40,078 bases of DNA from contig JAFGWS010000047.1 of the NCBI GenBank assembly GCA_016937035.1, positions 1 through 40,078 on the forward strand. The letters are read 5' to 3'. Position numbers and translations under genes: made by a program. Origin of the DNA: Pontiellaceae bacterium. GTDB taxonomy: Bacteria > Verrucomicrobiota > Kiritimatiellia > Kiritimatiellales > Pontiellaceae. Each line of letters opens with the position of its first letter. Position 1 is the stretch's first letter. Positions 7,996 through 25,256 of this stretch are shown piece by piece. Under the pieces are notes generated by a model. The model did not search any database. It was given only the letters and a program-made list of their open reading frames with translations, and was not told the DNA's origin.

Positions 7996-8011
7996 TGCAT
8001 TCAGTGTGCCA
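7996..8011 (-). promoter_or_regulatory. Sigma-54 promoter of the nifV-nifA operon
   Basis: Minus strand TGGCAC-ACTGA-ATGCA matches the -24/-12 consensus, with GG and GC at the canonical spacing. The -12 GC is at 7997-7998, so transcription would start near 7986, only about 4 nt before the nifV ATG. Confidence 0.75.
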
Positions 8012-8116
8012 TCACGCGGTGCGCGCTGCCCTGTTTGGTGTGCAAGTGGCTTGTTGCAAGATGATAAGAAGCGGCGTGAAGCGTGACGGTTGATGCGTTG
8101 GCTAGGTGGATAGTTC

Positions 8117-8211
8117 GGAAATAAATGTCGAAGCGTGAGGGTGTTCGAGAAGGTGACGTTCACAACATCGCATGAAAAAACAGCTTGCATGAAACTCCGA
8201 CATTTATTTCC
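8117..8211. promoter_or_regulatory. 95-bp upstream activator-type module, nifV copy
   Basis: Bounded by GGAAATAAATGTCG (8117-8130) and its exact inverse CGACATTTATTTCC (8198-8211). The inner edge lies 106 bp from the end of the sigma-54 element. The same module with the same 81-bp arm spacing precedes nifE and nifH. A middle block (GACGTTCACAACATCGC here) is partly conserved in the others. This is expected to be the enhancer site of the operon. Confidence 0.75.
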
Positions 8212-8464
8212 GTCTATCAGCTTTCGGCAGCCCATTTGGAGGAGTCCCTGATTTCGATGCCGGAACCCTATCCCGCACCGGCGACCGCCGCACTGCCGTC
8301 TATCGGTTTTCAAGTCCGAAGATCCTGCTGGGATAAATAACCGTCCCGATCTTTTCGAAAGAGGAAGCACTATGCGATCTGAAAAGCAAAATGACGAATT
8401 AGGCGGCCTGACCCTATCGTCTTAAGTAAGCTGTACTTTGCGGTTACCCCCGATTTTCGGACCA
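8212..8464. other. Intergenic, nothing recognised
   Basis: About 250 bp between the upstream module of nifV and a broken membrane-protein gene. No gene, repeat or strong terminator was seen. Confidence 0.4.
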
Positions 8465-8839
8465 CTAGTTTAAGTGGAATTTGCGTTCTTGAAATGATAC
8501 GAAAGGACGCATGAAAATGGGAAGAGCCAGTTTGGCTGGTTCCGATTGCAGAAACCCTCGGTAGAAATCTTGTGCTGATGGCCACAAGCCAAGTAGTAGT
8601 CCGATTAGTGCAATTTTTCTTCCTTTTGCTTTTCCTTTCCAAACGCCGATTGCTCCATAAATAAGTAACAATTGTGGAGCAATGATGCGGAACCAAACTC
8701 CAGCAATCTATGCGTTGGGTTTATCTGAAATCGAATTTTGAATAGCTGAAAAATTGATCAACGGAATGACCAGATCCAAAATTGCTCCGAGTAAAAATAC
8801 GACACAGGCTATGATCAATCTTTTAGGATACTTGTTCAT
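8465..8839 (-). pseudogene. Small membrane protein interrupted by an in-frame TAG
   Basis: One reading frame runs from MNKYPKRLIIACVVFLL to …SFQERKFHLN with a single amber codon at 8708-8710 (after SDKPNA). The frame is the same on both sides, and the second half continues with hydrophobic helices (APQLLLIYGAIGVW, IALIGLLLGLW). The layout, a first TM helix then a helical hairpin with a GVWKGKAKGRK loop, resembles small four-helix membrane proteins of unknown function. A point nonsense mutation is the simplest reading. A TTG at 8906-8908 overlapping the TGA of the upstream gene could also start translation. Confidence 0.55.
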
Positions 8840-8904
8840 ATTTTTTATTATACCAACGAATCGAATAAGACGCGCTAAACGCGCAGCGGTTACAGCGTCG
8901 ATTC

Positions 8905-9279
8905 TCAATTCGCTGGTTCAGTGTTTTTCTTTTGTTCTAATTCTCTAGTTTCTAATTCAGTGGTTACTTGGCGGATCATTTCAAAAAAAATCCAGAAGCC
9001 CATCACTCCGCACATGACGGTAGCGATTATCACGCAAATGAAGGTTTTACTGACTGCTGGGTTTTTAATCATTCCAAACACAAAGGAGAGTGGGATCGGT
9101 CCTAGGAACGCAATTGCGAGCATAACCCCGCGCATCATGCGAGCCTTGACACGCGTATCAATTAATTTTCGGTCATCCATTCGTTGGTAACGTTTTTGTT
9201 CCGAAGGCAAACGCATTAACATTGGGATGAATATCGTCAGAGCTACTCCGATGATTGCAGTTGTTTCTATTGGATCCAT
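8905..9279 (-). CDS. Hypothetical membrane protein
   Basis: 124 residues with three predicted helices: about 6-24 (AIIGVALTIFIPMLMRL), 50-70 (GVMLAIAFLGPIPLSFVFG) and 78-102 (TFICVIIATVMCGVMGFWIFF). The tail is charged and Glu/Lys-rich. No known family was recognised. It lies between modC and the interrupted membrane gene and reads in the same direction. The Shine-Dalgarno is weak. It may form a small island with the next gene, unrelated to nitrogen fixation. Confidence 0.6.
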   Translation of the reverse strand: MDPIETTAIIGVALTIFIPMLMRLPSEQKRYQRMDDRKLIDTRVKARMMRGVMLAIAFLGPIPLSFVFGMIKNPAVSKTFICVIIATVMCGVMGFWIFFEMIRQVTTELETRELEQKKNTEPAN

Positions 9280-9685
9280 ATTTTATTTCACTGGACATTT
9301 GATTAGGCAGAAACGGCATCTGCCTATCTATTTCCTTACCATGGCTTTTTCCATATGATAGGCAGACTGCATGGATCAATAGTCGATGAAAAGGAGAATG
9401 TCGGACAAAGAGCGGGCCTTATGGCCGAAGTATGCCGGAAGCCTTGTGGAATGCCGGGTTTTTGGAAAGAACGCGGAGTGGGCAACGGGATCGCATCTAT
9501 ACATTAAACATTGACGGGATTTCTACGAATGGGCGAGGTCCTATCACCGTTCGAACGCTGTTTCAGAAGCAGCGCGGTAAATGATGTCTTCCGCCTATTT
9601 CGATGCCCGCAGCTTTTCCTGCAACTTCCCGCTATCTTCGTGAGCCTCAGTGACCTCTGTGGTGAAAAATGCGTTGGAGGAATGT
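9280..9685. other. Intergenic region after modC
   Basis: About 400 bp without a convincing gene. Near 9640-9670 it contains CCTCAGTGACCTCTGTGGTG, which looks like a low-complexity intergenic repeat. No clear terminator for the mod operon was identified. Confidence 0.4.
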
Positions 9686-23656: not shown

Positions 23657-23989
23657 TTAGTCCTCTTTGAGCCCGGAGCTGATGGTGTAGACCTCGTCGA
23701 CGGGGGAGATGAAGATCTTCCCGTCGCCATAGTTCCCGCTTGTGCTGGTTTTGGCGGCCTTGAGCACGGCCTTGACCACAAAATCCTTGTCCGAGGCCGG
23801 GATGACAGTCATCAGCAATTCCTTCGGCAGTTCGTCGTAGGTAACCTCGCCGACCTTAAGGCCGCGTTGCTTTCCGCGGCCGAAGACCGGCACCTTGGTG
23901 ACGGCGGGATAGCCGGCTTCGAGCAGGCATTTCATGACTTCGTCGGCCTTTTCCGGACGCACGATGGATCTTACGAGCAGTTTTGACAT
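23657..23989 (-). CDS. nifI1: NifI1, PII-like nitrogenase regulator
   Basis: 110 residues, GlnB family: MSKLLVRSIVRPEKADEVM, T-loop region VFGRGKQRGLKVGEVTYDEL and C-terminal GDGKIFISPVDEVYTI. Position immediately after nifH and before nifI2-nifD is the diagnostic order for group III nif operons. AGGAG precedes the ATG. With NifI2 it is expected to form the complex that switches nitrogenase activity off and on. Confidence 0.93.
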   Translation of the reverse strand: MSKLLVRSIVRPEKADEVMKCLLEAGYPAVTKVPVFGRGKQRGLKVGEVTYDELPKELLMTVIPASDKDFVVKAVLKAAKTSTSGNYGDGKIFISPVDEVYTISSGLKED

Positions 23990-24009
23990 GGTTTGTTCTC
24001 CTGGTTGGT

Positions 24010-24131
24010 ATTGATAAATATGATGTATGAACTATGAAGTATGGAATACGGCCTGCGATGCACCCGATAAAACAGGCCAAAGCCGATTAAGTTCCGTTTT
24101 CATCATTCCGATTTGATGATTCATACTTCGA
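24010..24131. repeat. Inverted repeat in the nifH-nifI1 gap
   Basis: TATGATGTATGAACTATGAA and later GATTCATACTTCG are partly inverse. GGCCTG (24050-24055) and CAGGCC (24073-24078) form a nested GC-rich stem. The gap is the longest between the first nif genes. Confidence 0.55.
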
Positions 24132-24956
24132 TTAGACTCCGAATCCGTATTTCACCAGCAGCGATTCGAGCTCCTCGATTTCCAGCGGATTGGGGATCAC
24201 GAACATTTTGTTTTCGCTGATCTTCTTCGACAGCGCGCGGTATTCGTCGGCCTGTCCGGATTCCGGCGCAAAGTCGATGACCGTTTTGCGGTTGAGTTCG
24301 GCATGCTGCACGATGTTGTCGCGCGGGACGAAATGGATCATCTGGGTACCGAGGCGGTTGGCCAAGGCTTCGATAAGCTCGTGCTCGTTGTCGCACTTGC
24401 GGCTGTTGCAGATCAGGCCGCCGAGTCGAACGCCACCGGCGTCGGCAAACTTCACGATCCCCTTGCAGATGTTGTTGGCGGCATACATGGCCATCATTTC
24501 GCCGGAGACGACGATGTAGATTTCCTGGGCCTTGCCTTCGCGGATCGGCATGGCGAATCCGCCGCAGACCACGTCGCCGAGTACGTCGTAGAAGACATAG
24601 TCAAGGTTTTGGTCGGCTTCGTAGGCACCGAGCTGTTCGAGCAGGTTGATCGAGGTGATGATCCCGCGGCCGGCACAGCCGACGCCCGGTTCCGGTCCAC
24701 CGGATTCCACGCAGCGCGTTCCGCCGTAGCCATTCTTGATTACATCGTCAAGTTCGACGTCTTCGCCTTCTTCGCGAAGGGTGTCGAGCACGGTGTTCTG
24801 TGCCAGACCGCCCAGCAGCAAACGGGTCGAGTCCGCCTTCGGGTCGCATCCGACCACCATTACTTTGTTTCCGGCTTCGGCCAAGCCCGCCACCGTGTTT
24901 TGGGTGGTGGTGGACTTTCCAATGCCGCCTTTTCCATAGATCGCAATCTTTCTCAT
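24132..24956 (-). CDS. nifH: Nitrogenase iron protein (dinitrogenase reductase)
   Basis: 274 residues. P-loop GKGGIGKS at 8-15, [11 protein letters not shown] near 37-47, and the 4Fe-4S ligands Cys94 (GVGCAGRGI) and Cys131 ([12 protein letters not shown]). Arg97, the ADP-ribosylation site in DraT systems, is present, but no draT/draG is in the window. AAGGAG precedes the ATG. First gene of operon A: the sigma-54 element is about 85 bp upstream of the ATG and the 95-bp module a further 105 bp away. Confidence 0.97.
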
Positions 24957-25041
24957 GGTTCCTTCTCCTTGGTTGGTTAACAGCGTTTCAATCGGTTGTT
25001 CACGTCTTCGATTTTCATATCCAAAATATGAAGCTCTCTAT

Positions 25042-25057
25042 TGCAGCAGATGTGCCA
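25042..25057 (-). promoter_or_regulatory. Sigma-54 promoter of the nifH operon
   Basis: Minus strand TGGCAC-ATCTG-CTGCA, perfect -24 block and spacing. It shares 20 of 21 positions with the nifE promoter around TGGCAC through TGCTGCAATAG. Expected start is near 25031, giving a leader of about 75 nt. Confidence 0.87.
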
Positions 25058-25161
25058 TCGCGGTTTTCTAGCCGGCAGTGCGCATTGCAAAGCGCTTTCC
25101 ATGAATGCTTAATAAAATCATTCGGGTAGTGGATGGTTTGCCGGAGCGGGGGTGGCGATTT

Positions 25162-25256
25162 GGAAATAATTGTTGTCGGGGTGGGAGAGTCCAAGCGGCG
25201 ACGATCACAATACGCCTGTAAGCAATGCCTTACATGAAAATGCGACATTTATTTCC
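25162..25256. promoter_or_regulatory. 95-bp upstream activator-type module, nifH copy
   Basis: Left arm GGAAATAATTGTTGTCG (25162-25178; three extra bases) and right arm CGACATTTATTTCC (25243-25256). Total 95 bp, arm starts 81 bp apart, 105 bp from the sigma-54 element, as in the nifE and nifV copies. An additional TGTAAG-N6-CTTACA palindrome lies inside at about 25217-25234. Confidence 0.8.

Follow-up and report, generated by a model that had tools for sequence, protein, structure and literature searches.

The 40,078-nucleotide stretch analyzed here (the window; positions 1 to 40,078 of contig JAFGWS010000047.1 from a Pontiellaceae bacterium) carries a molybdenum (Mo) nitrogenase gene cluster transcribed from the minus strand, in which the promoters of nifV, nifE, and nifH share an upstream module of two inverted 14-bp arms. 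The cluster also contains nifB, a NifN/NifK-type gene, nifK, nifD, and a gene for a P-II-like protein. The NCBIfam cutoffs are exceeded by nifH, nifE, nifD, nifK, and nifB, and nifV falls under its own (396 versus 463 bits). The closest relatives of the window NifE (loci L001 to L006) come from Pontiellaceae and other Kiritimatiellales and are 82 to 94% identical. The genes referred to below are as follows:

4966-6615, minus strand: P0001, a NifA-type activator with GAF, AAA+, and Fis-type helix-turn-helix (HTH) domains, the proposed binder of the arms
6882-7982, minus strand: nifV
9686-12230, minus strand: modCBA
17191-18543, minus strand: nifE
24132-24956, minus strand: nifH

Promoters and modules of the nif cluster

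With up to one mismatch allowed, TGGCACANNNNNTGCA has three matches in the window, all exact, all on the minus strand, and located before nifV, nifE, and nifH, in agreement with the near-consensus -24/-12 elements of the original prediction. Each of these promoters carries a module of two 14-bp arms, a near arm (P) and a distal arm (D), whose starts are 81 bp apart in all three copies, as had been predicted and as remeasured here. Between the near arm and the TGG of the -24 element lie 105 bp at nifV and 104 bp at both nifE and nifH. The arm matches are inverted, with the near arms on the plus strand and the distal arms on the minus strand at all three genes. A third arm-like site (U), which the original prediction did not include, lies upstream of the module at nifH and, weakly, at nifE. 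In gene orientation, the features are as follows:

7996..8011, minus strand: nifV sigma-54 promoter (-24/-12), TGGCACACTGAATGCA
8043..8055, minus strand: nifV linker site resembling that of integration host factor (IHF), weak, 3 mismatches
8117..8130, minus strand: nifV near arm P, CGACATTTATTTCC
8175..8187, minus strand: nifV module IHF-like element, CAAGCTGTTTTTT, 2 mismatches
8198..8211, minus strand: nifV distal arm D, GGAAATAAATGTCG
18686..18701, minus strand: nifE sigma-54 promoter, TGGCACACCTGCTGCA
18732..18744, minus strand: nifE linker IHF-like site, AACCAACAACTTG, 1 mismatch
18806..18819, minus strand: nifE near arm P, CGACAATTATTTCC
18864..18876, minus strand: nifE module IHF-like element, TAACCTCTTGTTT, 1 mismatch
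18887..18900, minus strand: nifE distal arm D, GGAAATAAATGTCG
18917..18930, minus strand: nifE weak third site U, TTACATTTTTTTCC, 2 mismatches to the arm consensus, 30 bp upstream of D
25042..25057, minus strand: nifH sigma-54 promoter, TGGCACATCTGCTGCA
25162..25175, minus strand: nifH near arm P, CAACAATTATTTCC, 1 mismatch
25220..25232, minus strand: nifH module IHF-like element, TAAGGCATTGCTT, 1 mismatch
25243..25256, minus strand: nifH distal arm D, GGAAATAAATGTCG
25272..25285, minus strand: nifH third site U, CGACATTTCTTTCC, 1 mismatch to the arm consensus, 29 bp upstream of D

When both strands of the window were searched with the two-arm pattern (up to three mismatches), these three places were the only ones found, and none of 100 dinucleotide shuffles of the window matched that count (mean, 0.00). 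The 3-bp insertion previously proposed for one arm is unneeded, as the nifH near arm reads CAACA-ATTA-TTTCC, with one substitution. The canonical NifA site, TGT-N10-ACA, has three matches in the window (8571, 10942, and 26330), which is at chance level. None of these is in a module, as had been noted, or in a promoter.

Conservation, promoter linkage, and composition of the module

The module was followed through 345 genomes of the class of G004 (Kiritimatiellae). The arm pair (up to three mismatches) occurs in 11 of them, and a reversed-pattern control gave 0. This pattern fixes the spacing, so loci were also retrieved through genes with no spacing assumed. We found nifH in 21 genomes. In the close clade (nifH identity of at least 90%; one gene partial), arms with up to two mismatches lie upstream of nifH in 13 of 13 promoters, and the D-P distance is 81 bp in 11 and 82 bp in 2 (G103 and G109). 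TGT-N10-ACA is absent from these 13 promoters. At the nifE loci L001 to L006, the distance is 81 bp in four and 80 bp in two.

In a compiled set of 31 modules, which includes the three of the window and the added nifV copies L085, L110, and L119, the D-P distance is 81 bp in 25, 80 bp in 3, and 82 bp in 3, a count that is biased on its own, as 20 of the 28 relatives' modules came from the 81-bp pattern search. A -24/-12 promoter lies 80 to 128 bp from every one of the 31 modules, 8 of which were admitted only with one. The gap is 103 to 105 bp in 26 of them and 80, 90, 91, 128, and 128 bp in the others. Thus, the module is rigid and its distance to the promoter is less so: the fixed geometry of the original prediction holds for the nearly constant arm spacing but not for the promoter distance, which departs from it in 5 of the 31.

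The arm pair is also closely linked to nif genes, as 20 of its 21 places in relatives (up to three mismatches) are before nifH, nifE, or nifV. The remaining place, in G082, precedes a 78-amino-acid open reading frame (ORF) without a Pfam match. At this locus (L083), a module with four mismatches to the pattern is accompanied by a perfect sigma-54 site; nifH was not found in G082, and the ORF matches none of the window nif genes. Two genomes, G088 and G101, contain nine exact TGGCACRNNNNTTGCW sites, two of which (nifE and nifH) carry the module, and no arm with up to one mismatch was found at 40 to 330 bp from the other seven. One of these seven precedes a gene for an ammonium transporter (family PF00909, confirmed on its L118 counterpart). 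The ammonium transporter promoters of L106 and L118 have nif-like -24/-12 elements and no module, and a lone CGACAAAAATGTCT dyad lies 131 bp upstream in L118.

Single arms are not specific. Among the exact copies in the four genomes listed, 13 of 18 are in modules and 5 are outside, and copies with one mismatch are scattered through the genomes. For the arm pair, the scatter without promoter linkage that the original prediction had set against a function is not seen, although single arms do lie elsewhere in the genomes.

Each arm has the form of a pseudo-palindrome, [GC]GA[AC]A-WWWW-T[GT]TC[GC], and is by its sequence one dimer-sized dyad and a predicted binding site. In gene orientation, the D arm (GGAAA-WAAA-TGTCG) is nearly invariant, and the P arm is GGAAA or CGACA followed by WWWW-TTTCC. 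Of the 31 P arms, 15 have GGAAA...TTTCC and 3 are perfect palindromes. One half-site is GACA/TGTC, as in every D arm and roughly half the P arms; its partner is GAAA/TTTC. The third site, U, is 29 to 31 bp upstream of D and has up to two mismatches in 12 of 14 nifH modules and 4 of 12 nifE modules when the best of several offsets is taken.

The IHF consensus is WATCAANNNNTTR. Module positions 25 to 37 read YAANNNNTTGNTT, its reverse complement, with up to two mismatches in 21 of 31 modules (two of them exact) compared to about 0.5% of shuffles, a contrast in which independence is overstated, since the modules share descent and the positions were chosen from the alignment before testing. The TTG at positions 47 to 49 is also conserved. 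It matches the middle block previously described as partly shared, and the element at positions 25 to 37 is a further conserved one. A second IHF-like site lies in the linker, 31 to 43 bp before the TGG, with up to two mismatches (within 6 bp) in 15 of 31 modules and in 4.6% of shuffles. Three genomes each encode three PF00216 proteins. One of three scanned representatives is nearer to IHF than to HU (77 versus 45 bits), and near-identical copies of this type were read in all three genomes.

An Rfam scan of the window and an exact module search of viral contigs each gave 0 matches. Several other repeats are present in the window. Short GATTTCC/GATTGCC repeats occur in both orientations in the nif intergenic spacers (14138-14188, 15505-15555, 16961-16997, 21400-21499, and 23561-23653), and an exact 25-bp repeat, TTGTAGCGTTGGCTCTGCGAGCCAA, is found at 4063-4087 and 25694-25718. 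A loose family of 35-nucleotide repeats, 63 to 77% alike to the reference copy, has members at 4269-4303, 18569-18603, 18612-18646, and 27979-28013, of which the second and third are between the nifE start and the nifE promoter.

Similar dyads in distant nif promoters

Seventy nif promoters were obtained from 53 of 74 more distant loci (L007 to L080), with the remaining loci giving no usable promoter. ACA-N4-TGT is found in 37 of these 70 promoters versus 3.2 expected, and the other ACA-Nk-TGT forms (k of 0 to 14) are found in 2 to 6, near background. The base rate of ACA-N4-TGT is 4.0% of tiled windows and 9.0% of AT-rich ones. TGT-N10-ACA is found in 12 of the 70 (2.5 expected), and TGT-N1-ACA is enriched too (14 versus 2.9 expected). 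Of 58 sigma-54 upstream regions in L007 to L080, 10 contain a site resembling the Pontiellaceae arm (up to one mismatch), versus 0.24 expected from letter shuffles. In many diazotrophs, ACA-N4-TGT looks like a nif enhancer that has been under-described. The Pontiellaceae arm shares its 14-bp geometry and is probably related to it, in divergent form.

Where ACA-N4-TGT sites are paired, the spacing is 92 bp in four planctomycetes, 102 bp in L042 (a Marinilabiliaceae bacterium), 41 bp in L053, 30 bp in L039, L065, and L071, 20 bp in L034 and L069, and 18 bp in L019. Upstream of nifH, the L039 promoter at 982 has three such sites at intervals of 30 and 30 bp. In the planctomycetes (L008, L010, L013, and L017), two GACAATYTTGT sites are 92 bp apart before nifH, with one exact copy per genome. 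Among eight chosen planctomycete genomes, this double-site pattern is exact in the four where it was first seen, and a fifth has one two-mismatch match, taken as chance. Across 397 genomes of the planctomycete class, it is exact in one (the center genome), and eight two-mismatch matches versus three in the reversed control are likewise taken as chance. Two site types share one promoter in L012, L028, L048, and L049, where a GACA/TACA-N4-TGTC dyad is followed about 30 bp downstream by a TGTAACCTTTCCGACA-like TGT-N10-ACA site; in L035, a site of that kind follows a degenerate dyad at about the same distance.

Among known systems, the module resembles the proteobacterial NifA site in being a dyad about 100 to 200 bp upstream of a -24/-12 nif promoter. 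Known proteobacterial nif promoters have an IHF-type site between enhancer and promoter, and here a weak IHF-like site lies between module and promoter. However, the sequence and the half-site register of the arms differ from those of TGT-N10-ACA, and the module has two or three sites at fixed distances of 81 and about 30 bp, with an IHF-like site inside the enhancer itself.

The AnfA site of Rhodobacter capsulatus is TAC-N6-GTA (PMC7294313) and the VnfA site of Azotobacter vinelandii is GTAC-N6-GTAC or GT(T/A)C-N6-GTAC (PMC9542535). The ACA-N4-TGT dyad has its AC and GT in the register of the former and resembles the latter. The arms have the same dyad size and number two per promoter, and their CGACA/TGTCG half-sites put AC at -5,-4 or GT at +4,+5. 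Unlike those sites, the arms have one half in register or none and never both, their outer base is G/C and not T/A, and the module serves Mo-nitrogenase genes with an 81-bp spacing and an IHF-like element between. On the outer side of AC/GT stands G or C in the D arms and in almost all P arms, and the letters of TAC...GTA are not present. The Pontiellaceae arms are a further step from the AnfA register than the ACA-N4-TGT dyad. On the best reading, the module would act like a NifA/AnfA enhancer; it lacks the canonical NifA site, and no arm has more than one half-site in the AnfA register.

A candidate motif of Desulfovibrionales nitrogenase operons has been described for DVUA0143, a sigma-54 activator with an AnfA/VnfA-like N-terminal domain that is predicted to act on nif promoters (PMC4641369). 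The region upstream of nifH on the Nitratidesulfovibrio vulgaris plasmid contains CTACAAAAATGTAG. Nitrogen fixation has been reported for Pontiella, with nifA among the listed genes, and the word "promoter" is absent from the main text of that report (PMC10880615). Among the open-license PMC matches listed, no title or abstract reports the module or an ACA-N4-TGT nif site.

Candidate activator and proposed assembly

Orthologs of P0001 (at least 59% identity) are found in 14 of the 345 genomes, and the module is also found in 14, with 13 shared (Fisher P = 1.6e-21). This supports the conclusion that the module tracks the local NifA ortholog and not its widespread paralog, NifA2. The NCBIfam NifA profile aligns to P0001 only up to position 434 of 534 and below the cutoff, and the recognition helix of P0001 differs in sequence from the TPRQIAYRIQ of 9qq6, a solved Nif-specific regulatory protein.

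We consider it moderately probable that the module is a sigma-54 enhancer whose arms bind dimers of the NifA-type P0001, with an IHF-like bend between them that aids hexamer assembly. D, P, and, where present, U would each be one dimer site for this activator. D and P, about eight helical turns apart, would be on one face of the DNA, and an IHF-like protein would bend the DNA between them so that the dimers meet, favoring the AAA+ hexamer. At nifH, U, D, and P could supply the three dimers. The weaker bend in the linker may help present the hexamer to the sigma-54 polymerase. The functional enhancer of the original prediction, with its unusual NifA-type site, gains from the promoter linkage and from the co-occurrence with the nifA ortholog, whereas NifA as the bound protein is what we infer.

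The same prediction had offered two oligomers bound on opposite faces of the helix, and this does not agree with the spacings. Sites 18, 20, 30, 41, 81, 92, and 102 bp apart share a phase at about 10.3 bp per turn, with R of 0.94 over 11 spacings that were entered by hand, one per lineage or locus and several from a single genome; the simulated P value, with the period fitted within 10.0 to 11.25, is 0.0026 for the seven distinct values. As these spacings are close to whole helical turns, the sites would be on one face, and the opposite-face model was rejected on this phase. The arms are, moreover, dimer-sized dyads.

Several observations weigh against the enhancer bound by P0001, in addition to the overstated independence of the IHF-like element. 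The co-occurrence of ortholog and module is confined to one clade and may be explained by shared ancestry. Genome G079 has the ortholog but no module and no nifH, and G093 has modules without a detected ortholog (either assembly may be incomplete). The pattern search found no arm pair in the eight other nifH-bearing Kiritimatiellae genomes, in which the best NifA-like match is 49 to 55% identical; three of these (L157, L158, and L159) have single or close weak arms with two mismatches, and no promoter was found nearby in two (L152 and L153). No U site with up to two mismatches was found in the four nifV modules. Among the 62 D and P arms, AC at -5,-4 and GT at +4,+5 never occur together; the AnfA/ACA-N4-TGT register is present on one side in 46 (all 31 D arms and 15 P arms) and on neither in 16. 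Across 44 distant loci, the HTH class does not predict the site class, as ACA-N4-TGT is present in 17 of the 25 loci of the YK type, 7 of the 12 of the canonical type, and 3 of the 7 of the GLR type. The linker IHF-like site is weak overall and poor at the window nifH, and the IHF-like PF00216 protein is below the curated IHF cutoff (77 versus 111 bits).

Alternatively, NifA2 (46 to 50% identical; HTH, TQRIINYRIKN) could bind the arms in place of P0001, or both could bind as mixed oligomers. Of 11 module-bearing genomes tested, 10 have NifA2-like genes, which in 5 of the 10 lie within 2.5 to 9 kb of nifA, and the NifA2 HTH resembles the LRIINYKI type of seven deltaproteobacterial-type loci (L012, L014, L016, L028, L035, L048, and L049), six of which have GACA/TACA-N4-TGTC in a nif promoter. 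However, P0001-like enhancer-binding proteins (EBPs; E ≤ 1e-120, matches that may not all be orthologs) occur in 243 of the 345 genomes, compared with nifH in 21 and the module in 14. Because most of the 243 lack nifH, NifA2 is the less specific candidate, and it is the P0001 ortholog, not NifA2 alone, that is paired with the module. We regard binding by NifA2 as unlikely.

It is improbable, in our view, that the arms are operators of another regulator, whether a repressor or a global regulator of nitrogen, redox state, or metals, with the activator binding elsewhere. Dyads of the GAAC/GACA-N4 type are also used by non-EBP regulators, and the arms fit ACA-N4-TGT on one side at most, both of which would suit such a regulator. 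Nevertheless, the 13 close-clade nifH promoters leave no TGT-N10-ACA for an activator, the arms are at a fixed position upstream of the -24 element, and ACA-N4-TGT is the very class enriched in distant nif promoters. Finally, inverted 14-bp ends, constant length, and three window copies could recall a miniature inverted-repeat transposable element (MITE)-like unit of 95 bp, or duplicated promoter copies without a function of their own, but this is very improbable: the interior diverges while the arms and positions 25 to 37 and 47 to 49 stay, there are one to three pairs per genome, nearly all before nif genes, the D-P distance is 80 to 82 bp in 14 relatives as the promoter distance varies, and in none of the 21 places was a pair seen apart from a sigma-54 site (no search for target-site duplications was made). 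A mobile element was rejected on the grounds of position and interior divergence.

More broadly, one might tentatively propose, though we lean against it, that outside the alpha-, beta-, and gammaproteobacteria ACA-N4-TGT takes the place of TGT-N10-ACA as the usual nif enhancer, that several lineages pair such sites whole turns apart (planctomycetes at 92 bp, the Marinilabiliaceae bacterium at 102 bp, and Pontiellaceae at 81 bp with derived half-sites), and that the Pontiellaceae version would be a fixed enhanceosome in which an IHF-type bend between the sites folds the dimers, three of them at nifH, into a single hexamer.

To our knowledge, the route by which activator dimers on DNA assemble into a working hexamer at sigma-54 promoters is not settled, and little work has been done on nif regulation beyond the classical Proteobacteria. 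A search for TGT-N10-ACA would overlook most nif enhancers of such genomes (the site is in 12 of 70 promoters and ACA-N4-TGT is in 37). Because its spacing is fixed, its sites are defined, and relatives (Pontiella) are in culture, the module would make both hexamer assembly and nonproteobacterial nif regulation testable.

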